A DNA stretch of 64,000 nucleotides from NCBI GenBank assembly GCA_018806915.1, contig JAGKQI010000073.1, positions 186,001 to 250,000 of the forward strand, in the 5' to 3' direction. The stretch comes from Phytophthora colocasiae (Eukaryota; Oomycota; Peronosporomycetes; Peronosporales; Peronosporaceae). The notes beneath the pieces were generated by a model. It had not been told where the DNA came from, ran no database searches, and saw only the letters and a list, made by a program, of their open reading frames with translations. Positions 279-61,968 of this stretch are shown piece after piece. Every line of letters starts with the position of its first letter. Within the stretch, counting starts at the first letter, position 1. Position numbers and translations under genes: made by a program.

Positions 279-315
279 ATCCAACTCCTGAGTTGAAGAC
301 TGTTTATCAGTGAGA

Positions 316-5036: not shown

Positions 5037-5064
5037 CGAGCTTGCTGATATCAGCCCTTCTGCT

Positions 5065-29715: not shown

Positions 29716-30125
29716 TGCAGCGGGACTGCGTAGGTGTGCACGGCACAGAGGAAGTTTAGTTGACTCGTAGAGTCCTGCTTGCAAGGCACTAGCCTTCGGT
29801 TCTATACAAGAACCAAGTTGTCCACTAAATACGGGACTCACACAATCAGTGTCCCTATAACAAAGGAACTAACACTAATTATGTAAAATGCAAACTGATT
29901 TTTATTTATTTTATTGCCCTAATCCTGAATGTAACGGATTTAGTATCTAACATACTAAATCCTAATCAAATGCAATGTGTGGCTCTGAGCTAACTGCCAG
30001 CAACTGGCTACATATGTGACGTGTGAGAAACACTATGTGTCGTACACGGATCTGTGACTTGTGACCTGGATGGTGTATACCACACCTATTGTAGCCAAGG
30101 CGCGCAGCGCCGTGTAACCGTTACA
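29716..30125 (-). repeat. G1-C 5' LTR
   Basis: 410 bases, the same length as the LTR at 7333. Ends adjacent to the TCCGA duplication. Confidence 0.93.
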
Positions 30126-31572
30126 TCCGACATCAACTTTTGGTACGGCTTCGTTGCTCGGCGAGTGTTCGTCCTCTTGTAAGACATACGAGTCAACTTC
30201 GCCAACTTGCAACTCCAGCACGGCATGTCAACATCATCACGTAACTTCTCAGTCATTCCCGTCACTACTTGCTCCTTAGCCATGTCCTTTATGGTCGGGG
30301 TGTTCAAATGTGCAAACCGTAAATGCCAACGCACGAGAGAATCACCTTCATCTCGAGTTTTGTGTTGATGCACTGCTGGAATTCGATAAACTGGAATAAC
30401 CTTCGCCTTCAAGCGATATCGGCCACGACACTTCGTCAACAAGATCTGCGAATGATCCTTAGTCAACCATGCGACTCGTTGCGAATCACGCCTGCCGAAT
30501 TTCACAGTCCATCCATCCTTTTCCAGTAAATCCAAACTCAGCAAATTATCTGGTGCATTCGGTTTAAGCAGAACATTTTTAAACTGCAGTGACAGCTCCT
30601 GATGTGGCTGCTTACAATTCACCACACGGAGATGAACGCTACCAGTTTGCTCATCGTCACTGACTTTACCATCATAAGCCTGAAAGACATGCTCCTCATC
30701 TTTCTTGAGACTGGACAAGAGATCTTGCTGGTTGCAGACGTGAACATCACTACACGAATCCAAAGCCCACTCAATCATATCACCAGCATTGTTCTTCACG
30801 GATTCAATTACCAGAGTATCACGTGAAAGACAACCGACAGCATCGATCTTCCTTCTTTTCGAGTCATCATTTTGCCAGATTTGCACTCCACCGCTTCCGT
30901 TCCGATGAAGAAAAGTGAACTCTCGGTCCAACACCGGCGGCTCGATCATCAAAAGAGTCATCATCATCTTCATCCTTGTCCTCCTTTCGTTTCTTGTTCG
31001 GGCAATTGGGACGGATATGTCCAACTTCTCCACATTCGAAACAAGTACGAGTCTCTTTTCTTTCGCTTTTACTATTGCCATCTTTTTGGTCCTTTGATTT
31101 ATTCTTACCACGGCCACCTCTCTTGCGCTTGCATTGCTTCTGGCCCTTGCCACACGCAGCGACACCAGCAGCTTTCTTCTCTTCAGCACCCATCTTTCAT
31201 CAAGGGCTGACTCAGCACGCAAAGCATTCATCACGCCAGGCTGCAGTAGGTACAGGCCTGTTGTCAGTACATCCACGAACCACGTAGTGTTTAGAAAATT
31301 GCCGAACAACATCACGATGTGTGCGTGAAACGTGACCAAGCAGTGTTTCTGCATAGTCTTCATCATCAATCTGCTTCCCATAGTGCAACATATTCCGACG
31401 CATCTTCTCCATTTCACGCAACCAAGTCTCCATAGGTTTATCCGGCGTGTAAGTGTTCGAGTAGAACTCAGCGCGTACAAAAATGTAATTCGCGTACTCG
31501 CGCTTCGTTTGTCGATCCACAAATCGGTTTCACATCGCTTCGGCAGTCGTCACCTGACAAATCATCTCTGCA
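30126..31572 (-). pseudogene. Copia C1: Gag, protease and integrase zinc region
   Basis: Read leftward: a UBN2-type Gag stretch (PMETWLREMEKMRRNML) in the 31520-31212 frame, preceded by a likely Trp-to-stop TGA; a zinc knuckle CFECGEVGHIRPNC in the 31193-30867 frame; then a frame with the protease EWALDSCSDVHVCN, the GAG-pre-integrase zinc motif (WHLRFAHLNTPT, CWSCKLAK) and KLMSDV, where G1-C inserted. The protease has Asp-Ser-Cys instead of Asp-Ser-Gly. The 5' end of the element is cut at about 31572 by the tandem array; no C1 LTR is in the window. Confidence 0.83.
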
Positions 31573-35535: not shown

Positions 35536-36165
35536 TTAAAGACGGACGTCCAGAAGTGACCCGTGAAACGGGGGTCTCGATCCGAGACAATGGTCTCTGG
35601 CAGCCCATGCTGACGGAAGACCCGATCGATAAAGATCGTCGCTGTCCCAGTGCCATCGACGGTGTCCGGCACAACCGCGAGATGAGCCATCTTGCTCAAC
35701 GGTCAACAAAGACCACCACGCCCGTGTTGCCCGCCGAGTCCTTCGGCAGGCCAAACACAAAGTCCATGCTCATGGACTGCCAACACCCAGAGGGTACAGG
35801 CAAGCTCGCCAATGGCGCCGTCGCATACGGCGAGGGTTTAACCCGTTGACACGTCTCGCACGTGCGCACATACGTGCTGACCCACTTGTACAGCTTCAGC
35901 CACCAGTACATGGAGCTCACTGAGCCGTAGTTCTACTCGCGACCGAGGTGGCCGCTCGTGGGCGCGTGTCGTGGGCCTCATAGAGGATACGATACTTCAG
36001 GTCCTCATCGTGAGGAACCACCACGCGTGGTGGGTCATCCTGACCCGTGCTGTAGTACGGCAGACCGCCTTCCAGGCTATAGCGCTGGAGTTTCGCCTTT
36101 AGGCGTCGTGACAGAGTCACCTTTAAGTCCTTAAACTCATCGCTCCCTAGAGCTTGAAGCAGCGC

Positions 36166-36315
36166 GACACGTTCAGGATGACAAGGTTTGGCTTGTCATC
36201 TTGCAGCTTACAGCGAGAAACCTTCTCGCTGGGGGCAGCAGTCCTCATCGTCGCGTGTCCAAGCTCGACACGCGAGACTGCATCAGCAGTAGGACGCCCC
36301 GCGCCTACTGGTCCT
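36166..36315 (-). pseudogene. Array unit 2: protease remnant
   Basis: About 145 bases of the protease upstream part (GTTCAGGATGACAAGG onward). The protease active-site region seen in unit 1 is deleted together with the junction to the integrase segment. Confidence 0.75.
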
Positions 36316-37227
36316 TGTGGTGAAGTGGATTCAAATCAAGCCGGATATGACGCAGAACGACTACGATGATGGGTGACGTGCGACATGGTGCTACGATAAG
36401 GACAGATCCCTAAAACTGGGTACCTACTCTAGGGCGGATCCTAAGTTATCCAGATACCGGATCCTCAAGGTCCAAGGCCCTCGGATCCAGACTCGGATCC
36501 TCATAATCCAAGACATCAATGAAGTAAAGTAGTTGCAGGAGAGCCAGCATGATCCAAGATAGAGATTGGCGATAAGAAAGATAGGGTACAGGATGAGAAA
36601 CTGGATAACCATCAATCAGAGAGTCGAATTTACCTTCTAGTCCGCAAGTGGTTTTCTTCAGGGCCCAAGACAAGGGAAGTGGAGAGTGCGCAAGTGGTTT
36701 TCTTCAGGGCCCAAGACAAGGGAAGAGGATAGTGTATTGGCCTCCACAGCTAAGACCGGATCCCCGATTTGGCCGGCTTACCTTACGCTAGTGAAGACCC
36801 CGGATCCAACGGTGTTGATTGCTTAACCGTAGGATTCCTAGACCTCTCAACTACCCCAAGACCAACCGCTACAGGAGGCGGCAAGCAAGACAGTAAAGGA
36901 AAAGGAGCCCCACACCCACCAAGGCAACCCCGGATCCAAGGATCCACACGATCTTCGAGTCTAAGACCAAGATCCCCCAACAAGGACCTGTGTGCAGGAA
37001 TACCCACGCAAGTCCAACCTCCCAAGTCCCCGCCAAGGACGTTCAAGCCCTCACGCCTGTGTACACTCTCCCGTTCCTGAGAGAGCAGATCCCGCCCACA
37101 GACGGGTACACAAGGTGAGCCTCAGCAACCCCCACGATTATCGGAGTACCCCCTTCGTTAGTCAGTGTCTGGGCACCGTGTGTGAGCGTTGGATCCCTGC
37201 TCATTCCAGCGGATCCACTACACCACA
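36316..37227 (+). repeat. Solo G4 LTR in unit 2
   Basis: 912 bases, TGTGGTG to CACCACA, flanked by TCCT (36312-36315, 37228-37231). Same site as in units 1, 3 and 4, so it predates the amplification. Confidence 0.9.
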
Positions 37228-37231
37228 TCCT

Positions 37232-37831
37232 TGGCGTTTTTTTAACGCCCGCCCGCTATGCACTCGCGTGCATAGTGACCGATGTTACTACACTTGTAAC
37301 ATTGAACCTTACCGTTCCTACGCTGCTGTTGACCAGCAGTCGTAGCACTCGAGAGGTCCATAGGCTCCGGACCTCCCGTCTTCACAACAGGACGCGCCAG
37401 CTTCGGCGCGTTCGCATGGAGTTTAGCTTGACGCCGGCTAAACTCCTCTTGCATTACAAGGCTGATCGCCTCTTCGAGGGTATTCGGATAATCTCGAAAG
37501 AGATACGTCTTGACGGGACCATCTCTTAGTCCCTTCATGAACGTGACGACCTTGGTCGCCTCGTCGATTGGGTTCGCCACTATGTTCGATACCAAGTATC
37601 GAGCACGCTGGGCAAAGGTGTGAACGCCCTGCTGCAGATCGAGAGCGGAGTTTCTCGATCTGAACTCGTTCTTCGGGGGCTCAAACGCAAGATTGAGTTC
37701 CTCCTTGAACACATCGTACGTGCTGAAGCACGTAGCATCCGAGAGTCGGCGCCCATAGGCCTAACTCCTCGCACGTCCGCCAAGACATGACATGGCGAAC
37801 GCGACCTTCGACATCGGGTCGACGATACGTC
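37232..37831 (-). pseudogene. Array unit 2: Gag, 3' two-thirds
   Basis: The 37712-37242 frame of 156 codons keeps the capsid end (MFKEELNLAFEPPKNEF, SALDLQQGVHTFAQRARYL), VKTYLFRDYPNTLEEAIS and an intact CYKCSNIGHYAREC knuckle. It is cut at 37831 by G3 and resumes at 52189. Confidence 0.85.
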
Positions 37832-39453
37832 TGTGGTGGAGCGGATCTGGCCAAAATCTGGTTGAGGCCGATCGCGATCGCCACTTGCGCCCAGACACCG
37901 ACTAACGGATGGGGTCCCCCGATGATCCGTGATCTTGTTGCGTGTAGTGTTCACCTTGTGTACCCGTCGGTAGGCGGGTTACGCTCTTCCAGGTAACTTC
38001 TGAAGATGTCTTGGGACGAGAAGAAGGTCTTGGGTGACGCAGGGGTTTGAGGCGGCGTGGAAGTTCTTCACTCCACCTCGGGGTACTTGATCCCGGTCGT
38101 AGGCGAGTTCTCGAGCCTTGATCCGGGTGCCTGGTTCTTGATCCAGGTCTTCCAATAGTCCAATGTTCGGGATTCAGTCCCTTCCTTTCGGTGTTTTCCG
38201 CTTCCGATAGCGTGGGTCTTGAGGGCGAGATTCGACGGGATCCTTAGGCTAAACAACCAATTCCTTCCGATCCGATGCCTATGCACTTAAAGGATAGTTT
38301 CACTAGGATGAGGGCAAAGCTGGCCAATATATTATCCAGACTTAACCGCTATACTAGGTCACGTATCCTTACCTTCCTGACGCTTGTAGGGCCAATGTAG
38401 TTCCCGGTTCCAGGCGTAGCGAAGACACTTGAGTGGTTCAGGGCAAATTCGAGTCTCTTGGGGTTGTTGAGATATCGAGAGATCCTCACACTAGCGTAAG
38501 GTAAGCCGGCCAAATCGGGGATCCGGTCTTAGCTGTAGCTAGGTGGGCGAAGTGACTTGCTGGAACACTAAGGGGAGGCCAATATGCTATCCTCTTCCCT
38601 TGTCCTGGGTCCTGAAGAAATCCACTTGCGCACTAGAAGGTAAATTCGAGTCTGTTTATGGTTATTCCTATGCCTACTAATCCCATCCTGATTTACTATC
38701 CTACGATCACATGACTCTGGCTACATAGCTGATCCCTAGCTTGGTTCCCCTAACCCTGATCTTGAGCCGATTCCGTACTTAACCGAAGCTTGATCTCGTA
38801 CTTAACCGAAGCTTGATCTCGTACTTAACCGAAGCTTGATCTCGCACTTAACCGGAGCTTGATCTCGCACTTAACCGAAGCTTGATCTCGCACTTAACCG
38901 GAGCTTGATCTCGTACTTAATCGGGACTTGATCACTGCCTGATCCGCTTGGTGATCCTTCATAGAATCCGGATCAGGCCACAAGAAGAGTCTGCGCCGCG
39001 CCTGGGGTTGACCTTGATCCGGAGCTGATCTCGTACTTATACGGGAGAGGATCATTGCGCGATCTTGCGTGATCTCGCTTCGTCGCCGCCCGGGGAAGTT
39101 GGATCGTGCTGTTAGAGGCTTCCGGGGCGCCAGGGTAAGCTGATCATGTGCTCGCTTGGGGACCCGTCATCGTTGATCAGCGCGAGAACATCCTTGATTT
39201 CCCCATTCTTCCTCCGGCAGGATTCGGATCACCCACGGACACCACGGCAGGATTCGGATCACCCACGAACACCGCTCCACCTGCTTCTTCGCCGGTGTCT
39301 CTGTTGCCTGTTCCCCGGCGGGACCCATCGTACCTTCGTCTGATTCGACCCAGATCTGGCGATCACAGGTCCCCCCTGTCGCTCGTTCCGACTCTATTCG
39401 GGTTCGTGGCTGACATCGCCTCTCCGGGAAAAATTTTCGTCCGCTTCACCACA
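37832..39453 (-). repeat. G3 3' LTR
   Basis: Matches 50671-52184 along its length. It is 108 bp longer, mainly because of extra 23-bp tandem units. Confidence 0.93.
38770..38935. repeat. 23-bp tandem repeats in the G3 3' LTR
   Basis: About seven units of GTACTTAACCGAAGCTTGATCTC, shown as GTACTTAACCGAAGCTTGAT plus CTC, with small variants; each contains TGATCT. The other LTR (51608-51675) has about three. Confidence 0.88.
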
Positions 39454-39466
39454 TCCGCCCCCAGCA
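39454..39466 (-). promoter_or_regulatory. G3 polypurine tract
   Basis: On the - strand CTGGGGGCGGA abuts the LTR start TGTGGTGG. Confidence 0.7.
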
Positions 39467-39556
39467 CGTAAGTTGAGCTGCCGCAGCTCACTTCGGGTTT
39501 ATTTCCACATTCACCACCTGGAACACAAGTCGTTCAAGCGCCACCACTCTCTCGAA

Positions 39557-42368
39557 ATGTCCGATCCGCCTTCCTCGCCCCCCTTGACGCCGAGAACGCC
39601 CTCGAGCGAGCACTCGATCCGATCCGCCCGATCCACGGCCTCCCGCTTCTCAACCCCCGGGGTAAACCCTGAGCTGGTCACCTTGCAAGCGAGGCTGGCC
39701 CATAGCCAACGGATACGCGAGACCTTGAGTCGCGATCGGGACCACCTGGACGACACCGTTCGCCGGTTGCGATCCGACATGGAGGATATGGAGCGCTTCC
39801 GGGACGACCAAGCGGAGGAGATTTTTGCGGCTGAACGCCGAAATCGCTCATCTGCGATCGAGAACCGGAGATGCTATCGGTGGGGACGCGATCGCTGCCT
39901 TGCAGGATCAGCGGGCCCAGCACGACCGCCGAACGACGGGAGTCTGAGCAGCGACTGGCCCGGATCCAGGCGCGGCTGGACTCTGCGCTCGAGGATCTCG
40001 ACTTCCGGCGCTGGCCGAACTTCGCATAGCCGGGGAGACGGAGATTGAACTCCGGGATGAGCTTCAGGATCGCGAACGGGAGCTCGCCGCCGTGCGTCAT
40101 GACCTGACCATCACTCCAGCGTAGCGCTTGATCGCTGGCAGAGGAACGATTCCTCCCAAGGTCCACAAGCGGCTATGGCCATGCCTGCTGATCAGACTCG
40201 CCCGACGGCAGAGGAAGCTCGGTTGAGGTTGGAGTTGACGCGGACCCAAGCGGAGTTGCTCGCCGCTCGAGCCGAAGTCGCGTATCTGGAACGCGAGGCA
40301 GAGGATCACCAGGTTGAACTGGCTCGGGCACACCTCGCCTTGGAGGACGTATCCGCCCCGGATTCTCGCGCTCCGCCTCTGGGTGCAACCGCCGATGCCG
40401 CCGCCGTATCCAGCCTAGAGCAAGATCTGGCAGACGCCTTGGGAAATCTGGAAATAATCCAGCACGACCGGGACCAGCTCTCCGTCCAGCATCGTGCCGC
40501 CATTGCCGAGCGGGATCAGGCCGTCGCAGACCTGGATCAGGCCCGCCTCGACCGGGATCAGGCAATGCAAGATCTCCAATCGAGTAACGCGCAGACCGTG
40601 ATCGAATCCGGGTCGACCTGGACGATGCCACCCAAGATCGTTTGTCTGCCCTCGCAGACCTTGACGTGGCTCGTTCCGCCCGGGATGCGGCGACACAAGA
40701 GCTCGACCAACTCCAGCGACAAGGAACGCGGAGCTTCGACAGGCTCACCAAGAGCTGGACGCTGATTATGCCGAAGCCGAGCAACAGCTGCTCCACGCCG
40801 AGGATTCCACTCTGCTCGGTTGTCCTCGTGGATCGCGGATCGACGGGCGGCTCGTGCCACCAAAAGATCTCGAAGCGCCTCCGCTTCCCCGGCCGTTCCT
40901 CCTTCCTCACGCAAGCGTCCGGCTCCGGAGCACCTCCAGCTCCCCGTGATCTAAAACCTGCAGCTACCGAAGCTCCCGGGTCAACCCAGCCTGTCACACC
41001 CACGGTAGTCCCGACCCCGGCAGGATCAACGGCGAGTCCGCTGGATCTGTTGGCGGATCAAGCTTCTGGAGCAAGCCGGAGGAGGAAACCGACACTCCAG
41101 CCCCTGATCCGACCCAGCGCCTACGGATCGAGTCCGGATCACTTCCCGCCGAGGGTGGTTCGCCGGATGAGGACGAGGAAGACTCCGACTACGATCCCCA
41201 GCACCCATTCTCGTCGCCGTCCGAAGAGGACGGAAGTCCAGAACCCAGCAATGGAACTAGTTCTGAAGCCGAATCGGAACGCTCCAACGAGGCGAAGGAC
41301 TCCGAGGATGATGATATTTTACACATGAGCCGCCAACGATCTATCTCGACGCACCGGCGCGAGTCTGGTCAGGTTCCGAGATCCGGACCTTCTGGCACCC
41401 GTGGATCGGGGTCTCCGGACGGCTCAAGCCCATCTCCAGATGGATCAGGCCCGCCGTCTCCAGGATCACCTCCGGGTTTCCCGTCGCCGCCGCCACCTCC
41501 TTCCGGCGGTTCCTCGCCCCCCCGGGCTCCGACCACCCCTGTTCCCGGTCGCCTCTTTCATTCCAGGGTACGATCGGCAGCGTACCTTCGCGGCTGCTGA
41601 CATCGTGCCGTGGGATCCGCAGGTGATCGGGCAGTATTCGATCGTGGGTCTGATCGCCAGTTCTCTGGGCAAACGGTTGTTGATCCCTTCGGGTTGGCTG
41701 TTCCCTTCCCAGATACAGGCTGGGCCTGCACCGACCCCCCGCACCGAATACCTCCACGAGTTGATCACGGGCGTGAACGTGCTTGATCTGCTGGCTCTGG
41801 AGCCGTGGAACGACTTCGCGAACCCGGGTCCCCTTACGTTCGACCTCGATCTGCATGCAGAGGAGGAACACCCTCGCGGCCGTGGCCGCCACCTATCGCG
41901 TTCTGGAGGAACGGCACCGTCAAAGCATTTTGGGAGGCCACCCACAACCTCGAGATCACCTCTGCCATGCAGGATGCGGATCTTGAACTGCAGCGGTATT
42001 ACGTTGCTCGCAAGGCCCAGCGGAGTCGGGCTGGGTCTGCTTGGCGCCGATTCCTCGCCTCCGGCCCCGCCATAATGCGCGATCAGTGGTTCGATCTCGA
42101 CATCCTGCTGGATCCGGTCTTCCTTCACCTCCCCAGTCCGTCGGTGGATGTGGTTCGTTGGTATCCCGGCGTGGTCTCTCGGCGTGCCAACCTGGCCGGA
42201 TCCCAACGCGAACGTCCCAGAGCCGGCGAACCTGGATCGAGGCTCTGGAGGAGTGTGACGAAGGCGGATCCGTGGCGTAACCAGTATCAGCAAGACCCGG
42301 TCAACCATCCCGCTACCAGGATTCCCCGACTTATCGGCAAGTTCAATCCTCCTCCCGCTTCTCCGTAA
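39557..42368 (+). pseudogene. G3 antisense ORF: coiled-coil protein between pol and 3' LTR
   Basis: Opposite to pol, starting about 100 bases inside the LTR with ATG 39557 (MSDPPSSPPLTPRTPSS). Segments in changing frames, in order: Ser/Pro-rich N-terminus; a long coiled coil (RRLRSDMEDMERF; then in the 40175-40765 frame LRLELTRTQAELLAARAEV, LEQDLADALGNLEI, RDQAVADLDQARLDRDQAM); an acidic Ser/Pro linker ending in a poly-Pro stretch (41325-41600); and a compact C-terminal part (VPWDPQVIGQYSIVGLIASS; FWEATHNLEITSAM; WYPGVVSRRANLAG) to the stop at 42368. If joined it would be around 900 residues with about five frame breaks. No family recognised and no membrane segment seen. It could be an unknown structural or regulatory element protein. 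Confidence 0.55.
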
Positions 42369-42761
42369 ATCATTGCCACTTCGATCACCTGCTCAGAGGC
42401 TTCCCCCGAGCCCGGATTCGGAACCCCATCCAGGGCCGTTCTGCATTCTTCCATCTCCATTCCATGTAACTCCCATAATCTCCACTCGTAATTCTCGTAT
42501 TCTCCATTCCCACAGTCATTCCATCGTACTCCATCATTTTTGAGAATGTGATCCCTTTCATCTCCATCTCGACATCCCCGGATCACCATCTTCCAGCGTC
42601 AAATTCCCTACGTACATGCACATACACAAATGTAAAACTCTCGCTCTGATCTGGATTCTCCTCCACATCAGCTTCCTCGATCACGGCGAAGCAACCCTGT
42701 CACCTCGCCTGACTCTCCTTACACCTCTTCATGTGACTGCATCACGCCGAATCGGTTCCGA
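42369..42761. other. Convergent spacer between G3 antisense ORF and pol
   Basis: No gene. The + strand is pyrimidine-rich with many CTCCATTC-like repeats around 42440-42570. It separates the stop of the antisense ORF (+) from the stop of pol (-), as expected for a convergent transcription-end region. Confidence 0.6.
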
Positions 42762-43190
42762 TTAAGCGTGGTCACGTAGGAACGCGCTCAGTATGGCCCC
42801 ACAGTTAAGATCAGCTTCGTCGACCCACGTTGGCTCATCATAACCGACCCAGTGCACCAGAAATTCACGATAGATCCGGCCGTAGCGAGTTCGTTTCCCA
42901 CTTCGCATGTCCGAGATCCGTTCAACTTCGTACTCATCGATATCCAGATCCGGGACCCAACTGTCTTCCGGAAGGAGGATCTCATCGAAATCGAGCCGAT
43001 CTGCTTCATCCACCGTCAACTCGATCCGCGGTCGATCCGGGAAATTCCGTACCAGCTTTAGCTTAGAAACATGGACCACCGGGAAGATATGGTAATCAGA
43101 TCCCGCGATCTCCAGCTTGATCGTGAATTCATTGAGCTTCTCTGCAACACGGAACGGGCCGTGCCAGAAGGTGAGCGAGTTTACGTGCAT
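42762..43190 (-). CDS. G3 integrase C-terminal domain and chromodomain
   Basis: 142 codons: LTFWHGPFRVAEKLNEF and FPVVHVSKLKLVRNF (the SH3-like C-terminal domain), then YEVERISDMRS, REFLVHWVGYDEPTWVDEA and a terminal helix, which is a chromodomain ending the polyprotein at 42762. Confidence 0.85.
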   Translation of the reverse strand: MHVNSLTFWHGPFRVAEKLNEFTIKLEIAGSDYHIFPVVHVSKLKLVRNFPDRPRIELTVDEADRLDFDEILLPEDSWVPDLDIDEYEVERISDMRSGKRTRYGRIYREFLVHWVGYDEPTWVDEADLNCGAILSAFLRDHA

Positions 43191-43881
43191 ACCCTTCCTT
43201 CACACGATCTAGGTATAGCCAAACACGTGATCCAGCTTCGATCTGATGCGGATCAACATCCTCATTGTGCCGATCGGCTCGGTCTGCAATCGCCTCTCGT
43301 AGCCTAGCGTTGACCTGTTCTCGCGACTGCTGGTAGTATCTCTGAACGCGATATCTCCATCGTCTTGGATCGCGGTCATGGCGCCTGGTCGACCCGATCG
43401 GGATCGTCGCTTCCAACGTCGATCTCGGGTCCCATCCGTGTACCAAATAGTGAGGGGTATCTCCCCGGACCCGATCGTGAGCCGTGTTAATGGCGAAAGT
43501 CAATCTCTCCGCATATTCATCCCAGTCCTTTTGATCGAGATCTTGAACATACATCTTGATTGCCCTAGTGGCCGTTTGCATCATCCGTTCCGCAGTCCCA
43601 TTGGCCTGTGGTCGGTAGGCCATCGTCGCCCGTTGTCGTTGCCCCAGGATCCTATTAAACGATCTGAAGAAGTCGGACATGAAGCCCGGCTCTCGATCGT
43701 GCCTGATCATCTCGCTAGCGCCAAATCTGCGGAACACGCATTCTTCATAAGATTCCGCGACGGTCTGGGCCGATCGGGAGGAACTAGCCTTTGCGATCAC
43801 ATATCCCGTGAACAGATCCACCCAGATCAGCAGTTCAGTATTGCCTTTGTTGGATCTGGGCAGAGAGGGTATGTGATCCAT
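43129..43881 (-). CDS. G3 integrase catalytic core
   Basis: 250 codons with the D,D,E triad: LLIWVDLFTGYVI (Asp), MIRHDREPGFMS (Asp) and ANGTAERMMQTATRAIKMYV (Glu). A downstream region SRVWLYLDRVKEGYARKL leads into the C-terminal domain in another frame. The core is clearly different from G1/G2 and of the Chronos-like lineage. Confidence 0.86.
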   Translation of the reverse strand: MDHIPSLPRSNKGNTELLIWVDLFTGYVIAKASSSRSAQTVAESYEECVFRRFGASEMIRHDREPGFMSDFFRSFNRILGQRQRATMAYRPQANGTAERMMQTATRAIKMYVQDLDQKDWDEYAERLTFAINTAHDRVRGDTPHYLVHGWDPRSTLEATIPIGSTRRHDRDPRRWRYRVQRYYQQSREQVNARLREAIADRADRHNEDVDPHQIEAGSRVWLYLDRVKEGYARKLAHLLARPVPCCREAQ

Positions 43882-43883
43882 CG

Positions 43884-44549
43884 CTACCTGATCTGGAATG
43901 GGTATGTAGCTTGCAGATTCCCAGGTGACTCGCCTCGGATCGTGGGTCTCCCCTTTCCGGTCTCACAGTCTACACACTCGCCTACGTATCGCTGCACACT
44001 CCGATATAATCCCCTCCAGTGGAAATGATCTCGGATCCGCTGATAAGTGCGTCCGATCCCTTGATGTCCCCCCTCCAGAGTCGTATGGTAGTGGTGGAGG
44101 ACATCCTGCTGTAGCGTTTCTGGAACCACGAGTCTCATCAGACGGTCGCGATCACCTCTTGATCTCGGCCCTGGTGGGCAATAAAACAACAGATCCTGTT
44201 CATCTACCTCGTACTCGGAAGCGATCTTGGCGTAGGATCCAGCCTCGGCTCGAGTAAGATCCGCGATCTGTCCAGCCAGGTACTTCTTTAATCCGGCGAT
44301 CCAGACCTCCTCGTCCTGGGCTCGCCTGATCCGATCCACTCGCATCTCCCGGATCAGTTCCTCTCGCAGGACGGCGGCATCGGGTCGTGCTCGGGCTGCA
44401 CCCGTGGCTACGGCCGACACTTGCACCGTTCGATCTTCAACTCGAGGGATCAACACCTCATCAAGCCGATTCATGGTGACCAGATCGCACCGATCTGCTT
44501 CATCGTGGACCTCGATCCCGCTTCCTCGCTGCAGCGCGGCGCTCGCCAA
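43884..44549 (-). CDS. G3 second RNase H end and integrase zinc domain
   Basis: 221 codons. The first residues (SAALQRGSGIEV) continue the second RNase H after a one-base shift. A linker of about 100 residues follows, then the HHCC zinc domain (HHYHTTLEGGHQGIGRT ... CVDCETGKGRP). Confidence 0.82.
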   Translation of the reverse strand: MASAALQRGSGIEVHDEADRCDLVTMNRLDEVLIPRVEDRTVQVSAVATGAARARPDAAVLREELIREMRVDRIRRAQDEEVWIAGLKKYLAGQIADLTRAEAGSYAKIASEYEVDEQDLLFYCPPGPRSRGDRDRLMRLVVPETLQQDVLHHYHTTLEGGHQGIGRTYQRIRDHFHWRGLYRSVQRYVGECVDCETGKGRPTIRGESPGNLQATYPFQIR

Positions 44550-44952
44550 GCTGTCTGCGCTCCCATTCCCAGTCTCTCTTCACATGGACTAGCTCATGAC
44601 CTCCCCAATTCCGCAAGTGATCTAGCACCTTCTGTTTCAGTAACGTCAATCCTGGCGCCTTGCAGTCGATCTCGCCCCGGACTTGTCGGATCACTAGGTT
44701 CGAATCGCCACAAATGACCAAACGGCGGCGTTCTAACTGTGCGATCATGCCAAGACCTAGCAAGAGCCCACGGTATTCCGCTTCATTGACAGTAAGACTC
44801 TCCGCATAGTCTGATCTAGCTTTGATCACTTTCCACCCCGGCAAACTCCACACGATCGCGCTGAAAGCGCCTCCTCCTCGTTTCACGCGTGCCGAGCCGT
44901 CGAAACTTACTACCCATAGCTCCTCGCCTGGATCTACGGTGGGAATCGGCAT
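44500..44952 (-). CDS. G3 second, archaeal-type RNase H
   Basis: 150 codons with the layout of the archaeal/plant-type RNase H (RVT_3-like): VVSFDGSARVKRGGGAF (first Asp), LTVNEAEYRGLLLGL (Glu), VICGDSNLVIRQV (Asp) and LVHVKRDW before the last Asp, where the frame slips to the next one. All key acidic positions up to the slip are present. It sits between the Gypsy RNase H and integrase, so the element carries two RNase H domains. Confidence 0.85.
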   Translation of the reverse strand: MPIPTVDPGEELWVVSFDGSARVKRGGGAFSAIVWSLPGWKVIKARSDYAESLTVNEAEYRGLLLGLGMIAQLERRRLVICGDSNLVIRQVRGEIDCKAPGLTLLKQKVLDHLRNWGGHELVHVKRDWEWERRQLGERRAAARKRDRGPR

Positions 44953-45051
44953 CTGGATCTTACGCCTTGGTTCCTTCTGTGGCGCGATCGCGATCAGGGC
45001 TTCGTCGATCTCCGATCTAGGCGTTATATTAGCTGCGATCGCCCCAGTATC

Positions 45052-45445
45052 TCATCCTCTCCCTTCGTACACTTCGTGATCTCGAGTGTCCATGGGGACA
45101 GGAGAGCAGACCATTGTCCCAGACGCCCTTGAAGGCCGGCAGACTTGAAACAGCCAGGCAAGCGTGGAGTGTCTGGTTAGGACCTTGATCCGACGTCCCA
45201 CCAACAGGGTGTAGTGTAGATCCAGGTTCCGGAGTAGTGCCAACACCTCCGTTTCGGCAACATTATAGTTTAACTCGTTCGTCTTCAAGCGTTCGACTGG
45301 CAAATGCGACCGGGTGGTAGATCTGGTCGTGTTCCTGCATTAATGCGGCGGAGATCGCCCAGTCACTGGCATACACGATCACCACGGGTAACTTTGTCAT
45401 GTCGAAGTGACGGAGGATCGGGGTCGACGCGATCTTGGTTTTCAA
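45052..45445 (-). pseudogene. G3 native Gypsy RNase H, probably degenerate
   Basis: Two frames, 45445-45263 (TPILRHFDMTKLPVVIVYAS, DWAISAALMQEHD) and 45303-45052 (NYNVAETEVLALLRNLDLHY, LLVGRRIKVLTRHSTLAWLF). The first Asp and the Glu are kept, but the usual Thr-Asp-His motif reads Thr-Arg-His, which removes a catalytic Asp. This fits loss of activity after gain of the second RNase H. Confidence 0.8.
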
Positions 45446-45469
45446 GGCTGTAAACGCCCTGTGTGCTCT

Positions 45470-46938
45470 CTACTCCCACCTTTCGTCGCCAGCTCTTGGG
45501 GCCAGATTGGCTCCGACCTTGCTTGAACAGGGGGGAGGCGTCGCCCCCAAGTTAAGATCCGGCGTACTATTCCCCTTTTGAGTCAAGGTGTCGGGTGATC
45601 CATCCTGATTCGACTTAAGCGCAACGGGATCTCGATCGATCGGGTCCGTACTATCCATGATCTTTCGAAGATCTGGTCGCTTCTTCAGTTCTGCGAACTC
45701 CACTTCACGTAGTTCATATAGGACCGATGCATAGATCGCGTAATCCTCGATGAACCGACTATAGTAATTCAAACTTCCCAGGAACGATTGCATGGATCGG
45801 AGCGACCCAGGGAATGGCAGATCCGTCAGAGACTTCAGGTCTTTCGGGTTTGCCTCCAATCCGTCGATCGACACTTTGTGTCCGAGATATTCCACCTTAT
45901 CCATGCCCCAGAAGCTCTTCGCCACACTGATCGAGAGATTCCATTTATCACAGGCCTCAATAGGTCTTCCACCCGATCGCACATTTGATCCCATGATCCA
46001 GCCGTGATCAAGATATCGTCGATGTATGATCTCCGTCCTAGAACCGACGGGCGACCAGGATCTTCCGGGATCCCTGATTCAAACACATCTGCGGAGTCTT
46101 CCGTATTCCCTGACTGGGAGATCTTCAAAAATCCATATAGGGCGTTGTCCACAAGACGTTGATAGATCTGAGGGGCGTTCTTCAGCCCGAACGGCATGCG
46201 ATTCCACTCGAAGAGGCCGAACGGGGTGATGAAAGCTGAGATCGCGCGAGCTCGATCGGTCATTGATACGACCCAGAATCCACTCGCCATGTCTAATGAG
46301 CAGTACCACAGAACCTTGTCAAGATCTTCTAACAGGTCATTGATCAGAGGCATTGGGTAGATCATCAGCCTCGTGAGACCATTCACCAGCCGATAATCGA
46401 TACATAGTCGGATGTCTACACCGTTCTTCTTGATGATCACCACGATCGGAGATGCCCATGGCGATGTCGATGGCCGAATGATCTTGGCAGCTAGGAGTCC
46501 TTTGATAAGATCCGATACTTTCTCGCGAAACTGTGGCGCCACCTTTCGGACTCGTTGTGCGATCGGCTTTGCATCACCCACGTCGATATCGCATATAACA
46601 CCCTTGGCCGCTGGAGGAAGTGCGTTTCCCTTTCCGATCAGGAGATGTCGCTTCTTCCAAATAATCTGTCGAAGTTTCTCGATCTCCTCCGGGGTAGCCG
46701 ATCCCGGATTTCCTACTTGCAGATCTTCGATCTTGACTTCTTCAGTGGTGGAGATCTGGATTTCTGGTACTACTGCGAGATTATCGGCTAGATCTTCGGC
46801 CGAAAAATCGCCACTTTCGTGTAAGTGGGTCTGATCGGCGTTCTCGATTCCTTCCGGAGATGTCGGATCCGGTTCATCCGTTGATTGATCACGCAGCCTA
46901 TCGTCCTTGGCTGTCAAGATCGGGGTGTCTTTAACCAT
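45470..46938 (-). CDS. G3 reverse transcriptase and connection
   Basis: The 46938-45835 frame (367 codons) has RLCIDYRLVNGLT, WYCSLDMASGFWVVSM, FEWNRMPFGLKNAPQIYQ and the active site YIDDILITAGSWDQMC. Between ALYGFLKIS and YIDD lies an insertion of about 35 residues ending PSVLGRRS, not present in G1/G2. It continues in the 45994-45470 frame with VEYLGHKVSIDGLEANP and LGSLNYYSRFIEDYAIYAS. Confidence 0.87.
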
Positions 46939-47016
46939 GGGGACGGCGTCGGCGTCGGATACATGTTGGATCTCGATTTGAAAATCTGGTTTTTCTGTTT
47001 TACCTCGATTTCCTCT

Positions 47017-47600
47017 TCATGTCCGATCTGTCCGACCTGGGGCCTGATCTGGCAAGCTCTCATTCGTCTCAGTCTCACCATTCGTCTCCAGTCTCACCGC
47101 CCCAGCTTCGCCACTCCAGGGCCTTGTCGGAACTGATCGTGATCGGTGGGGTATCCATGGGATCCGGTTGGGGATCGATGAATGCGACCTTGACTTCGGC
47201 CGTATCGGTCGGTGATCGCGGTTCCAATGTCGATATTGGTGCAGGATCAGGATCGGTCTTGATTGCCCCACCTCGACGGAGTATAGATCGCGCGGCGTAA
47301 CGTAGGTCGGCCGTTCGAAACCGACGGTAAGGGGATCTCTACGGTTTCCTGAGGTTCCGGTCTTGCGTCCACTGTCGCTTCTAGAGCTAGATTCTGCCAC
47401 TCCATGTAACGCCGGGACCCGACCGACACAAACCCAGGGTAGCGAGGAACTTTTTCTTGATCAAGTACCATCCCGACATGTAATCTGTGATCCAGTCGTA
47501 AAATCTTCTCGCTCAAATTCGTGATCACTAAATTACCGAGTTCGGCCGGGTCCATTTTACCACGGTGGGTACCCATCGGTCGCCTCTGGTCACCCATAAT
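47017..47600 (-). pseudogene. G3 protease-RT linker
   Basis: Two overlapping frames, 47597-47247 and 47400-47017, with no catalytic motif. The first keeps VPRYPGFVSVGSRRYMEWQN; the second is Arg/Ser/Pro-rich and probably partly a shadow. Confidence 0.5.
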
Positions 47601-47687
47601 TTCTCCGTCGCCGATAATTTCACTCTCGATGCGGTCTCTTCAGATCCCCAACTGGGATATGTAGATCTTCCTCCAATTTCACTGATC

Positions 47688-48437
47688 TCACCTTCTCCCG
47701 TATAATCTTTTTGCGACCACTAAGTGGTATCCCACTTCATTAGGTAAGCACATCGATCCCTCTGCCAGATCCATCCGGACCCCAGCCGGGATCATGAAAT
47801 CCATACCCAGGATCGCATCTTGTCCGGATAGATCTCCGATCCAAATATCGAAAAAGTAGACCAAATATCCCGCAAGTGTGATCTTGATTCTCGTTCTTCC
47901 CTCGGTGGTGTACACATTATCGCCGATCCCAACACACTCCTGTCTCTGACTAGCGTCAAAGTGGCACCCAACCTTACGAGCAAAGGTGGTATCCAAGATG
48001 GATACCTCGGCGCCAGTGTCCAGGAGCAAGATCGCTCTTTCCTGATTGATCTTGCCTGAGATCTTGGCTTGGCGGAACCATTTTCCTGGTACGTGGTATT
48101 TCCAATACCCCCTGGATTCTCCTTCCTTGAGATCCAAAGCTACTTCCGCACCAGATCGCGAGAACTCATCGATCCGGGGAAGACTCGCGATCTTAGCAGT
48201 ATACGAATGCAACTTACATGTATTACCGCGCAGATCCGAATTCTCCCTATCTTGATCTCTTGATTCCTTGTTCACATATGCATAGATGCAGTACTCAGAA
48301 CGCTCGGCTCGTACCGGTTTCCAAACCGGCGAGCGTCCTAGTTTAACATCTTTTCCACCTTCTCGGGGAACAATCCGGCATGTCGGGTCGGGTCGTACCA
48401 CTTGCGGATCTGGTTGTAGAATTCTTCCATGGGGCAT
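47688..48437 (-). CDS. G3 protease
   Basis: 250 codons. After a zinc-knuckle-proximal N-terminal part comes the retropepsin core: RAILLLDTGAEVSIL with the active site DTGA, then IWIGDLSGQDAILGMDFM. It reaches a stop at 47688 before RT. All expected catalytic residues are present. Confidence 0.86.
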   Translation of the reverse strand: MPHGRILQPDPQVVRPDPTCRIVPREGGKDVKLGRSPVWKPVRAERSEYCIYAYVNKESRDQDRENSDLRGNTCKLHSYTAKIASLPRIDEFSRSGAEVALDLKEGESRGYWKYHVPGKWFRQAKISGKINQERAILLLDTGAEVSILDTTFARKVGCHFDASQRQECVGIGDNVYTTEGRTRIKITLAGYLVYFFDIWIGDLSGQDAILGMDFMIPAGVRMDLAEGSMCLPNEVGYHLVVAKRLYGRR

Positions 48438-49260
48438 TCTCCAGCTTCATGGATCTCCCCACAACCACGGCAGGTATACAGACAGCGATCTGTTGGGTGA
48501 CCTCTCTTCCCGCACTTTTCGCAGGTTAGACGTCTCCAGCAGTCAGATCCCGATGCGTCCCCGATCCACAGTGTGAACAGCGACCTCGATCGTGGTCCGA
48601 CGTACCCCTGCGATCCGCGATCCGGCCTCGATCTTGCGTGTTCACCTGCGATTGCGACTGATCCTGTTGGTGGGGGACGCCCCCAGTGCCGATCTGCTTG
48701 TCTTCCGACGCAGCAAGATATATTCTCCGGAGATCGCCTTCAGAATCGGACCCGTCCGATCCGGATATTTCCTCCGATTCCGAGCTCGGATCCTGGGTTT
48801 GGATCGCCCGTACCACCGCCCGGGTGGGTGCCGCCGGGGCACTGGCCGGTGCCTTTTGTCTGTACTTCGATCCGAACGCAGATTTACGCTGTCTGCTTTT
48901 CGCCCGTTCCCGGGCACGAAGTACTTCCTCAAGTTCATCGACGTCATTCAGCCGGAGTAGGGTCAGCCGATCAGCTAACTCCGGATCTCCCAATGTCTCG
49001 ATATAGTGATCTACATGTTCCCGGCGGGCCTTAGGGCTCCCATCCTTGATCTTCAGTCTAGCACGTAAAGCCGCCACGTTGAGCCGGTAGAGATAATCGA
49101 GAGGAGTCTCTTCCGATCGTTTGCGAGCGTGATAGTATTGCCACGCGACCGACATACCCAACCCACAATACTGGGTCTGGAAACTGTCCAACAGATCTGC
49201 CCACTTGGTTTTCGTCGTTCGACTGAGCTGCCTGTACCAGTTCTTTGCCGGTCCCACCAT
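48360..49260 (-). CDS. G3 Gag capsid and zinc knuckles
   Basis: The 49260-48526 frame starts with MVGPAKNWYRQL and shows a capsid-like helix-rich domain (WADLLDSFQTQYCGLG, TPLDYLYRLNVAALRARLK, ELADRLTLLRLNDVDELEEV), then an Arg/Ser/Asp linker and RCSHCGSGTHRD. Further Cys/His pairs follow in other frames (48360-48530, CEKCGKRGHPT and CRGCGEIHEAGEC), so there are probably two or three knuckles. Confidence 0.8.
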
Positions 49261-49357
49261 CAGATCTGCAAATGTGAGGCATTTCTCTTCTTCCGTAGCC
49301 TGATCGCGCTGAAATGCTGACTTGACTTTACTGATCCAGGCCCGAGCGCGATCTTCG

Positions 49358-50056
49358 TCAGATCTTTACCCGCAAAATCTTTCCAGATCCGAGATCGCTG
49401 AGATCCGGACCCGCTGGATCATCGACGATCCTCCTTGACCGATTGCCGCGGATGCGATCACTTGCTCGGCTCGACATCTGTCCACCAGAACTTGGTATGC
49501 CCATATCGTCCGGATCGTATTCCCATGCATCCGGATCCGAGGCCGTGACGGACTCCATTTCAACATCCAACTCCCCTTTGATCGGCGATCGGGGTGTCGC
49601 GAGATTCCGCTCTTTCAAGAAACGATCCATCGCCATTTGAAAGTAATCGTCCAACTTGTTGCTCGATCCAGTGGAATTAGTCGTCGGCGCGGTCTGGTCC
49701 GTCCGGATCCGGCGATTTTCTTGCTGATCGGGCATCTTGACCTCCAGCTTTGCGGCCACCGATCGCGTATCCTGTTTCTTCACACGCGATTTCAGGAACT
49801 TGGCGCCGGAGGGCCCTAACGACATGCGTTGCAACCCTCTCGGGCTATCTGAGTCTGGTTCCGAGGTCGCTGACGCGTAGCATGACGACCCAGTCTGATA
49901 GCCTGGGTCGGGCGTCAATGAGCGCTCGCCGACCAAGATCTTGAGGGAGTCGAATAGATCATGGGTCGCAGATTGAATCGCTTGCAGTTCCAAGTCAAAT
50001 AGAGAGTTTGGGTCGAACTCTCCAGCCACCAAACCAGCTTCTTGGAGCAGATCCAA
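49358..50056 (-). CDS. G3 Gag N-terminal region
   Basis: 232 codons, MDLLQEAGLVAGEFDPNSLF onward, rich in Ser, Asp and charged residues, with LDDYFQMAMDRFLKERNL and EYDPDDMGIPSSGGQM. It stops just before the capsid segment; about 100 bases between (49261-49357) continue the protein in another frame (AWISKVKSAFQRDQATEEEK). Confidence 0.7.
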   Translation of the reverse strand: MDLLQEAGLVAGEFDPNSLFDLELQAIQSATHDLFDSLKILVGERSLTPDPGYQTGSSCYASATSEPDSDSPRGLQRMSLGPSGAKFLKSRVKKQDTRSVAAKLEVKMPDQQENRRIRTDQTAPTTNSTGSSNKLDDYFQMAMDRFLKERNLATPRSPIKGELDVEMESVTASDPDAWEYDPDDMGIPSSGGQMSSRASDRIRGNRSRRIVDDPAGPDLSDLGSGKILRVKI

Positions 50057-50162
50057 GTAGGATCTTCACCGCGTTCAGGCGGTCAGAGCTAATCCGGGGC
50101 TTCGACACTGGGCCGGTGAGGTTACCGATCTGGCGGACTTGTATGATCGTAGAACAGGATCA

Positions 50163-50640
50163 TTAAGCAAGGTCTCGCTTAGCCTCTTCCTGTAGTAGGC
50201 CTGTTCGATCGCGTCCTTGGTGATCGTTGATCCTGGAGTTGATCACATCCTCTGGCTCTGAGTCTGGAGCCTTCAATTTCGTCCAGGTGCTCTTGATCTT
50301 CTTTTCTTGGTCGATCTTGAGGCACCAGTGGTCTTGAGTGAGCAGATTAGGTTTCAGCTTTGCTGATTCCTTATCGCTCGTGTGCGGATCTCGATTCTCA
50401 TCGAGATCCGCAATAACCCTCGACGGGGCCTTGGGAGGGAATTCGAGGTTTTCTTCGAGATCTGGATTGCGATCCAGGTCTGCCTCGTGCCTGTCAGTAG
50501 AGATCCTCCCAGAACTCTGCTGATCTGTGGATCTTTCCGTTTTAAGCAGTGCCTCCGTCGATCCAACCTTCGTAGGCACTTCTTCCCCTTGTTCTTCTTT
50601 AATCTTGACATCTTCTTGGGACTCACGGTGATATCCGGAA
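50163..50640 (-). CDS. G3 leader ORF upstream of Gag
   Basis: About 160 codons between primer site and Gag, charged and acidic (SQEDVKIKEEQGEEV, ADLDENRDPHTSDKESAKL). The open frame extends into the LTR, so its start is uncertain. It may be the true N-terminus of Gag shifted out of frame, or a separate leader protein. No domain recognised. Confidence 0.45.
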
Positions 50641-50650
50641 GTCACCCAGA

Positions 50651-50669
50651 AGATCGGGCACGCGCACCA
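50651..50669 (-). promoter_or_regulatory. G3 tRNA primer-binding site
   Basis: One base after the LTR end, the - strand reads TGGTGCGCGTGCCCGATCT, with TGG matching a CCA end. A different tRNA from G1/G2; identity not determined. Confidence 0.7.
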
Positions 50670-50670
50670 T

Positions 50671-52184
50671 TGTGGTGGAGCGGATCTGGCCAAAATCTGG
50701 TTGAGGCCGATCGCGATCGCCACTTGCGCCCAGAACACCGACTAACGGAGGGTCCCCCGATGATCCGTGATCTTGTTGCGTGTAGTGTTCACCTTGTGTA
50801 CCCGTCGGTAGGCGGGTTACGCTCTTCCAGGTAACTTCTGAAGATGTCTTGGGACGAGAAGAAGGTCTTGGGTGACGCAGGGGTTTGAGGCGGCGTGGAA
50901 GTTCTTCACTCCACCTCGGGGTACTTGATCCCGGTCGTAGGCGAGTTCTCGAGCCTTGATCCGGGTGCCTGGTTCTTGATCCAGGTCTTCCAATAGTCAA
51001 TGTTCGGGATTCAGTCCCTTCCTTTCGTTGTTTTCCGCTTCCGATGGCGGGGGTCTTGAGGGGCGAGATTCGACGGGATCCTTAGGCTAAACAACCAATT
51101 CCTTCCCGATCCGATGTATGCACTTAAAAGGATAGTTCACTAGATAGGAGCAAAGCTGGCCAATATATTATCCAGACTTAACCGCTATACTAGGTCACGT
51201 ATCCTTACCTTCCTGACGCTTGTAGGGCCAATGTAGTTCCCGGTTCCAGGCGTAGCGAAGACACTTGAGTGGTTCAGGGCAAATTCGAGTCTCTTGGGGT
51301 TGTTGAGATATCGAGAGATCCTCACACTAGCGTAAGGTAAGCCGGCCAAATCGGGGATCCGGTCTTAGCTGTAGCTAGGTGGGCGAAGTGACTTGCTGGA
51401 ACACTAAGGGGAGGCCAATATGCTATCCTCTTCCCTTGTCCTGGGTCCTGAAGAAATCCACTTGCGCACTAGAAGGTAAATTCGAGTCTGTTTATGGTTA
51501 TTCCTATGCCTACTAATCCCATCCTGATTTACTATCCTACGATCACATGACACTGGCTACATAGCTGATCCCTAGCTTGGTTCCCCTAACCCTGATCTTG
51601 AGCCGATTCCGTACTTAACCGAAGCTTGATCTCGTACTTAACCGAAGCTTGATCTCGTACTTAATCGGGACTTGATCACTGCCTGATCCCGCTTGGTGAT
51701 CCTTCATAGAATCCGGATCAGGCCACAAGAAGAGTCTGCGCCGCGCCTGGGGTTGACCTTGATCCGGAGCTGATCTCGTACTTATACGGGAGAGGATCAT
51801 TGCGCGATCTTGCGTGATCTCGCTTCGTCGCCGCCCGGGGAAGTTGGATCGTGCTGTTAGAGGCTTCGGGGCGCCAGGGTAAGCTGATCATGCTCGCTTG
51901 GGGACCCGTCATCGTTGATCGCGCGAGAACATCCTTGATTTCCCCATTCTTCCTCCGGCAGGATTCGGATCACCCACGGCAGGATTCGGATCACCCACGA
52001 ACACCGCTCCACCTGCTTCTTCGCCGGTGTCTCCATTGCCTGTTCCCGGCGGGACCCATCGTACCTTCGTGTAATTCGACCCAGATCTGGCGATCACCGG
52101 TCCCCCCTGTCGCTCGTTCCGACTCTATTCGGGTTCGTGGCTGACATCGCCTCTCCGGGAAAAATTTTCGTCCGCTTCACCACA
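50671..52184 (-). repeat. G3 5' LTR
   Basis: Pairs with 37832-39453. Ends at the CGTC duplication. Contains two adjacent copies of GGCAGGATTCGGATCACCCAC, shown in 20 bases as GGCAGGATTCGGATCACCCA. Confidence 0.93.
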
Positions 52185-52188
52185 CGTC

Positions 52189-53508
52189 GAGCCGCAACGG
52201 CTGTGTCGAGTTCGACAAGCCAACGAAGGAGGGTCTCGTCCTCCTTCCCCGTGTAGGTACTCACGTGGAGTTTTCAACGACTCCACGCGTGGCTTAGGGG
52301 AAGCCATCGAGGCAGCAACATCTCATTGCTCCTTAACAATGTACCCCAGCGTGTGGCATTCGCATGCCAGTCTCGCTCACGACTTGGATCAGATCGAAAG
52401 CTGAGTGAAAAGCGGCTCCGAGGGGCCTCAGTCCCTGACTGCTCGCCTGCAGCTTCAGCTCACTGAGCTGCGGGGTCAGGTGACGATGCTGCTGCAGATG
52501 ACGCAGCCCGCACGCGCGTCGTCGGCGTCAGCGCCTCCGCGCTCGCCCCGCGAAGATCCCAATATGGCTTGAGTAAGCCGGCGTAGAACACGGGATGTGT
52601 TTGCATCCGCTTCGGCAAGTCCAGCGTGTATGCCAGGCCCTTCTTGGCCACGACCGTGAACGGTCTGATAAAGCGCGGGCGCAACTTCGTCTTAAAGACG
52701 GCCGACACTGCATGTGTAGGTAGGTTCTTAGCGTTTAATAAAACTTGGTCACCGACCTTGAATTCCCACACATTGCCTCTGCCTTTTGCATCAGCCTGTT
52801 CCTTTTGAACATCTTGTCGCGTCACGCACTCGTCGTAAGACGCTCAATCTCATCGAGAGGAAGTCATCGACTTACTTACGAACAGCAAGAGGGCTGACAT
52901 CAGCAAGCTCGGAGTCGAGCGACGGCACAGCCTCTCCCCCACCAAGCCCGAGGCTACCGCGTGGCGGAGCCGTAGGTCTTCTCGCGACCGAGGTGGCCGC
53001 TCGTGGGCGCGTGTCGTGGGCCTCATAGAGGATACGATACTTCAGGTCCTCATCGTGAGGAACCACCACGCGTGGTCGGTTATCCTGACCCGTGCTGTAG
53101 TACGGCAGACCGCCTTCCAGGCTATAGCACTGGAGTTTCGCCTTTAGCCGTCGTGACAGAGTCACCTTTAAGTCCTTAAACTCATCTCTCCCTAGAGCTT
53201 GAAGCAGCGCGACACTGAGCATGCTGCTCAACCCATGTGAGGCGTGTCGGCCTCTTCGAAGTCAAGTCTTCGAAGACTTCCCTGTCGAACAAAGTTGCTC
53301 GATGCAAGTTGCTCGATGCGCCCGAGTCCACTAGGGCACGAAGAGAGTTAACTCTCTTCGACATCACGTCCAGGATGACAAGGTTTGGCTTGTCATCTTG
53401 CAGCTTACAGCGAGAAACCTTCTCGCTGGGGGCAGCAGTCCTCGTCGTCGCGTGTCCAAGCTCGACACGCGAGACTGCATCAGCAGTAGGACGCCCCGCG
53501 CCTACTGG
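52189..53508 (-). pseudogene. Array unit 3: Gag start, integrase pieces and protease
   Basis: 52189-52370 completes the gag interrupted by G3. 52825-52460 is the G1 integrase C-terminal domain (KVGDQVLLNAKNLP). 53231-52872 joins pre-integrase (LQALGRDEFKDLKV) directly to a segment before the C-terminal domain (RPTAPPRGSLGLGGGEAV), so the core is deleted. 53367-53182 is protease start with LVDSGAS. Unit 4 shares the same deletion. Confidence 0.82.
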
Positions 53509-53512
53509 TCCT

Positions 53513-61682: not shown

Positions 61683-61964
61683 TGTTGCAGGTGATCCAAT
61701 ACGATCCCGCAATGATTACGGTAAGATGTTTACGCCACCGATGATTAGACGAGTAGGATGATTGGACGAGTGCAGAATGTTGGTGATTGGATGCACCAAA
61801 TGATTGGATGCAGACCAGGTAGAGAAAACAGTGTAAGCTCATATCAATCAATCACTTCTGAATTTCCATTCTACCCCTCAAGTGACTTCCCTCGCCTCGG
61901 CCTCCTCGCCCCAAGCTTCGGCAGTCCTCCCCTCGCAAGACAACCTCTACCACGACCTTCTTCA
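61683..61964 (+). repeat. C3 5' LTR
   Basis: Matches the C2 LTRs in length and sequence. Confidence 0.92.
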
Positions 61965-61968
61965 GGTT

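Follow-up and report, generated by a model that had tools for sequence, protein, structure and literature searches.

An antisense open reading frame under purifying selection beside the 3' LTR of a Chronos-like retrotransposon of Phytophthora colocasiae

Does an oomycete LTR retrotransposon carry, against the direction of its own transcript, a further protein gene, and if so, what might that protein do? The question arises from a 64,000-nucleotide stretch of Phytophthora colocasiae DNA (assembly GCA_018806915.1, contig JAGKQI010000073.1, positions 186,001 to 250,000; hereafter the window). An earlier note, made from the letters alone, had described a large antisense open reading frame (aORF) between pol and the 3' LTR of one element, G3.

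The element G3 and its broken antisense frame

G3 occupies 37832-52184 on the minus strand and is bounded by the target-site duplication CGTC, its LTR pair being 97.9% and 96.1% identical over two stretches. Its parts are as follows.

37828..37831, no strand: target-site duplication CGTC, 4 bp, with its partner at 52185-52188
37832..39453, minus strand: 3' LTR, on the plus strand starting TGTGGTG and ending CACCACA
39454..39474, minus strand: putative polypurine-tract segment adjoining the 3' LTR, 95-100% identical between diverged copies
39475..39510, plus strand: conserved block with the oomycete initiator TCACTTC (39488-39494), candidate aORF promoter (alignment)
39557..42368, plus strand: aORF, type A, broken here into successive open frames and open in other copies
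42762..43190, minus strand: pol end with chromodomain (PF00385)
43129..44549, minus strand: integrase zinc-binding domain and core, split over two frames (domain matches)
44500..44952, minus strand: second RNase H, RVT_3-type (PF13456)
45266..45469, minus strand: native RNase H, partial, degenerate by eye (PF17919, PF17917)
45835..46938, minus strand: reverse transcriptase (PF00078)
47688..48437, minus strand: aspartic protease (domain match)
48526..49260, minus strand: gag-like ORF (PF03732, E 0.0056, below that family's cut-off)
50671..52184, minus strand: 5' LTR, starting TGTGGTG and ending CACCACA like the 3' LTR

The coordinates given earlier hold: plus-strand open frames run from the ATG at 39557 to the stop at 42368, 393 bases from the pol stop (pol end 42762, minus strand), and the limits of the LTR and of pol agree with a place between the two. 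The ATG belongs to the internal region, 103 bp past the inner LTR edge. The aORF is antisense to the element transcript; it does not overlap the pol gene and is not antisense to it. To follow the frame through the window we used P0001, a 934-aa protein from locus L019, as the reference for aORF residues. Using tblastn, the intact P0001 matched the window in ten consecutive segments separated by nine frame changes (a nested eleventh match not counted), so the window aORF is dead, the decayed form of what is in other copies a real accessory gene. The pol frames of G3 are themselves broken in this copy.

The earlier note had called G3 a chromovirus. This label is probably wrong, because the pol of G3 has a second RNase H besides the chromodomain, whereas a chromovirus, as the term is used in PMC5348765, has a chromodomain and no second (aRNH) RNase H; the authors of that paper set Chronos apart from chromoviruses. 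A degenerate native RNase H plus a second, RVT_3-type one is the published Chronos architecture. In G3 both lie between reverse transcriptase and integrase, the archaeal type of the second being judged by Pfam family only, and the chromodomain is found at the pol end beside the integrase, as in Chronos. G3 is therefore best explained as a Chronos-like chromodomain Ty3/Gypsy element, an assignment made by domain architecture alone; oomycetes hold other unclassified chromodomain elements too. It resembles Chronos in its native and second RNase H, integrase, terminal chromodomain and oomycete host, and differs in that the published description comprises ORF1 and ORF2, the aORF being an added part (PMC5348765). 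The main text of that paper has 0 instances of the words 'antisense', 'opposite', 'coiled' or 'additional ORF'; a table in it shows Chronos to be abundant, with 1,555 elements counted in P. infestans T30-4.

Several observations concern the surroundings of the element. The LTRs contain a tandem repeat of 23 bp (38746-38968; 51582-51712), of which the 3' LTR has the larger number of units. Repeats at 36000-37086 and 53045-54282, 97-99.6% alike and 17.2 kb apart, flank G3 on both sides and show short inverted similarity to its LTR; G3 may therefore have inserted into a second element running the other way. To the left of G3, a minus-strand ORF of 156 aa (37242-37712) ends in what looks by eye like a CCHC knuckle and may represent the outer element's gag. 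Other Gypsy- and Copia-type gag/pol ORFs lie in the window at 310-5098, 7669-10965, 17900-20820, 25344-27710, 30086-31522 and 61758-63056.

Intact copies, selection and position across the genome

We then asked whether the frame is intact elsewhere. Searching the same genome with the DNA of 39454-42761 gave at least 38 full-length matches at 95-100% identity, window included (best 40 of 348 candidates scored). Thirty of the DNA matches, the window's own locus among them, were made into loci L009-L038, and 8 of these 30 hold an unbroken frame of at least 980 codons; in many copies of this genome the aORF itself runs uninterrupted over about 934 codons. When the C-terminal piece of the window frame served as a protein query, at least 28 matches fell in open frames of at least 930 codons with no internal stop, among the best 150 of 558 candidates. 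Three diverged copies, L059, L060 and L061, are open as well; they were picked from matches already listed as open and have 79-93% nucleotide identity to the rest. The intact homologues on which the earlier proposal depended are thus present in related copies.

The region has a G+C content of 61%, and the opposite strand likewise contains long ORFs that look spurious, as might be expected if the aORF were a shadow frame of GC-rich DNA without function. However, the homologous 3.3-kb piece of L019 holds an open frame of 968 codons, against a mean of 223 and a maximum of 531 in 1000 dinucleotide shuffles of the 3.3-kb sequence. The other five frames contain 21-44 stops over the 929 codons compared. 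One mirror frame also gave a low dN/dS of 0.19-0.22, as expected because its third positions coincide with those of the aORF, yet it contains 28-35 stops. We estimated dN/dS by the Nei-Gojobori method on ten open copies (L024 left out) and obtained 0.16-0.20 in the 24 pairs that include L059, L060 or L061, and 0.16-0.37 in 21 pairs of close copies. Ratios near 1, which the earlier note had named as counting against a gene, were not seen. Differences accumulate at third codon positions, 2.5-4 times as many as at first or second ones. A functionless shadow frame is refuted by dN/dS, shuffles and six-frame test together, and we assign it practically no probability.

Constraint varies along the frame. 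In six pairs of diverged copies, dN/dS is 0.13-0.19 in the coiled coil and 0.12-0.17 in the C-terminal domain, and 0.26-0.31 in the basic patch and linker. Compared with pol, the aORF appears less constrained, at 0.28 (7 close copies) versus 0.04 for the pol end (10 of the 30 loci, 480+ open codons), the two copy sets being different. We regard it as nearly certain that the aORF is a real gene under selection.

The position of the aORF is fixed. In 30/30 loci the aORF faces the pol chromodomain, with LTR sequence on its start side. A search with the pol end gave 150 matches at 95-100% identity (best 150 of 1039 candidates), and an aORF faces 130 of these 150 scored pol ends, while 0 of the 150 have one facing the wrong way. 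Of the 130, 81 are of the type found in the window (type A, counted as a C-terminus facing the pol end within 1.5 kb). Two of the remaining 69 pol ends were read, and both have a diverged aORF in the same place, which we call type B:

L062:1-1005, plus strand: type B aORF, diverged from type A, same place
L063:622-1158, minus strand: type B aORF, diverged from type A, same place

Type B accounts for the other 49 facing frames, and 20 of the 150 pol ends have no facing aORF among the type A and B matches listed. At least two of these 20 (C9:1847121 and C32:911867) adjoin type A DNA, in which the C-terminal frame must be interrupted. Seen from the other side, at least 81 type A C-terminal matches among the best 150 listed are linked to a listed pol end, the remaining 69 being uninformative either way, given that the pol ends are the best 150. 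The claim that the frame encodes a separate element protein is supported by the copies that remain intact, by purifying selection, by a place and direction that do not vary, and by homologous proteins in other species.

The two types are old. Their C-terminal domains are 53% identical over 282 codons, with dN 0.44, dS 2.5 (near saturation) and 103, 87 and 174 differences at the three codon positions. The pol ends beside type B, by contrast, are 96-99% identical to the window's pol end. Between L019 and L062, identity is 73% over the last ~100 non-coding alignment columns ahead of the pol stop, and 39-69% per 50 columns in stretches nearer the aORF. We infer that the aORF module has been exchanged between elements, or that rates have been very uneven. 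The type B query listed 138 matches, 99 of them type B. Since 16 of the 138 have in common an open frame of exactly 561 codons, the N-terminal part of type B may lie in another frame or exon. In the gap that separates the two stop codons, at ~42630-42680, both types also have an AT-rich motif (ACATGC-TATAC...AAATATAAAA), perhaps the transcript end of the aORF.

The protein, its relatives and a candidate promoter

The predicted product can be divided as follows, with window coordinates.

39557..39661, plus strand: Ser/Pro-rich N-terminus, residues 1-35 of P0001 (sequence)
39662..40855, plus strand: coiled-coil region, ~residues 36-430, approximate bounds (heptad score, profile matches)
40856..40990, plus strand: basic NLS-like patch, KRSR...SRKRP in P0001, approximate bounds (sequence)
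41130..41375, plus strand: acidic linker and Arg/Ser motif (sequence)
41524..42368, plus strand: conserved helical C-terminal domain, residues 652-934 of P0001 (alignment, AlphaFold2)

Of the features described earlier, the N-terminus rich in Ser and Pro, the acidic linker and the compact part at the C-terminus are all present. The long coiled coil also finds support: a simple home-made heptad score gave heptad-like helices, with gaps, across residues 39-431, and family profiles match tropomyosin, myosin and SMC rods, which supports a coiled coil as far as such matches can. Heptad-like helices occur in 14/14 members scored, with the basic patch beside them in most and the most basic stretch elsewhere in some; the patch would act as an NLS. 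The C-terminal domain carries the motifs W-LFP, PW, WExTH, RKxRRSRAGxxW, DLDILLDPFFLHxP, WYPG and DPWRNQYR and was modelled as helical by AlphaFold2 (pLDDT 79.7, pTM 0.78), and structure comparison found no similar solved or viral fold for it. P0001 has no Pfam domain above cut-off. Scattered Pfam matches in other members fall mostly on coiled coils or supposed fused gene models.

Three protein searches returned 41, 23 and 17 proteins, queries and repeats included, the first scoring only the 7989 candidates sharing most words. Every named relative belongs to Phytophthora (sojae, infestans, megakarya, fragariaefolia, fragariae, rubi, nicotianae, palmivora), Peronospora or Nothophytophthora, and six are without a name. 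All three genera are Peronosporaceae. Antisense placement is established in the P. colocasiae genome, the other species being known from proteins alone. In two gene models taken from separate records, P0010 (judged by eye) and P0058, a Chronos-like pol and the C-terminal domain of the aORF are joined and read the same way, and the reverse transcriptase of P0058 is 63% identical to that of the window over 137 residues. These joins tie the aORF family to Chronos-like elements but speak against antisense placement there. The P. nicotianae member P0049 is listed with a Pfam RXLR domain (one member at 5.2e-9), probably as a fused gene model.

The earlier suggestion that the LTR drives the antisense transcript gained no support. 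A conserved candidate initiator, TCACTTC or TCACTTT, lies at -69 from the ATG in 6/6 sequences from four lineages, and because it starts 35 bp past the LTR edge, within the internal region, the aORF may have a promoter of its own just inside the element. Between the four lineages, the 57 bp from the LTR edge (39454-39510) are 85-100% identical (three sub-blocks measured), compared with 61-83% for the next 46 bp and 75-93% for the LTR end. Oomycete core promoters include the INR motif YCAYTYY and the FPR motif MWTTTNC two bases downstream, mostly 50-100 nt from the start codon, with INR+FPR in an estimated 13% and INR alone in 18% of P. infestans promoters (PMC3599244). The promoter is a candidate only, since INR matches turn up across the window at a density of about 1.0 per kb and strand, no FPR match was found at the published 2-nt spacing from the aORF INR, and the first 21 bp of the conserved 57 bp are also the polypurine segment, itself so named from its position and composition.

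Known systems and possible roles of the aORF protein

The plant Tat, Retand and Grande elements also have an antisense gene (aORF-3R) placed between pol and the 3' LTR, some with SMC-like content: the gene of PvRetro13 has an SMC domain and that of Retand a Transposase_28 domain, while the Grande gene has its own upstream promoter and a product reported as nuclear (PMC7264820, PMC11963269). The same sources treat the role of these plant genes as still open. Tat elements share a second RNase H with G3, and its gain by both Tat and Chronos is already in print (including PMC5348765); in open-licence papers we did not find an antisense gene reported for both lineages. The G3 aORF differs from plant aORF-3R in its oomycete host, its chromodomain element and its lack of Transposase_28, the plant proteins being compared by description only. 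Transposase_28 (PF04195) gave no match in P0001 at E<=1 and is absent among the 25 of 27 Pfam families listed for 34 family members; a genome search for PF04195 was without match, as were its 14 controls. Because place, direction, coiled coil and basic patch are shared with the plant systems and no common domain was found, we conclude that the likeness is one of convergence. HBZ of HTLV is a bZIP protein much smaller than the aORF product, and P0001 has no Pfam match to bZIP at E<=1. HBZ and APH-2 are alike in being antisense and reported nuclear, the HTLV antisense promoter lying in the 3' LTR and the candidate initiator of the G3 aORF outside it. Outside plants, the fungal element Boty of Botrytis also has an antisense aORF, likened here by description only (PMC7264820). 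For an oomycete element, the earlier statement that no function has been described still holds as far as our literature search went.

We lean, by a little more than an even chance, towards an aORF product that is a nuclear accessory regulator, convergent with the plant Tat/Grande antisense genes. An initiator-type promoter belonging to the gene itself, a little past the inner edge of the 3' LTR, would drive its transcription, and the protein would oligomerise via the coiled coil and enter the nucleus by the basic patch. There the helical C-terminal domain, with its basic RKxRRSRAGxxW, would bind nucleic acid or chromatin; as the domain matched no fold, it is the basic stretch that points to such binding. 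The protein would then regulate the element's own transcription or integration, as is thought for Grande gene23 and HTLV HBZ. The main rival, which we consider rather unlikely, is that the protein is instead a component of the particle or pre-integration complex, travelling with integrase and chromodomain and bridging the cDNA to nuclear import or target chromatin, without regulating transcription. Heptad-like helices in all 14 members scored, adjoining a basic patch in most, would suit such a role, pol carries a chromodomain of its own, and for plant aORFs a review brings up a part in moving the pre-integration complex into the nucleus; antisense placement, however, gives the gene its own RNA, so that its supply would not be tied to gag-pol.

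Two further explanations appear highly improbable. If the antisense RNA rather than the protein mattered, pairing with genomic RNA and feeding small-RNA silencing, the ORF would be incidental; sense and antisense small RNAs are indeed reported along two abundant P. infestans Gypsy-type elements, but dN/dS of 0.16-0.20, the third-position excess and ~934 open codons favour a translated product. A captured host gene or separate transposon, present in some copies by chance, would accord with the absence of Pfam similarity between the aORF protein and gag or pol families. Such a history fits poorly with a frame that faces pol at 130 of the 150 scored pol ends and never the other way, with the repeat-like numbers elsewhere (two P. 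infestans clusters stand for 66 and 44 sequences), and with three protein searches in which no named relative lies outside oomycetes.

Returning to the nuclear regulator, a wider and decidedly speculative scenario, to which we give a low probability, is that Chronos converged with plant Tat twice, in the second RNase H and in an antisense nuclear regulator, and that the aORF module, perhaps with the LTR, is swapped by recombination, type-specific regulators serving self/non-self distinction and copy number among co-resident families. If true, module exchange would account for types A and B on near-identical pol ends. Antisense genes beside the 3' LTR are already known in plant elements and some retroviruses, and a well-conserved aORF in an oomycete lineage that also gained a second RNase H would mean that the plant history had independently run a second time; the two traits together would suggest that both answer one life-cycle need. 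The aORF defines a protein family with many intact copies, usable for tests of transcription, localisation and binding, and a set of Phytophthora 'hypothetical protein' models would become probable retrotransposon genes.
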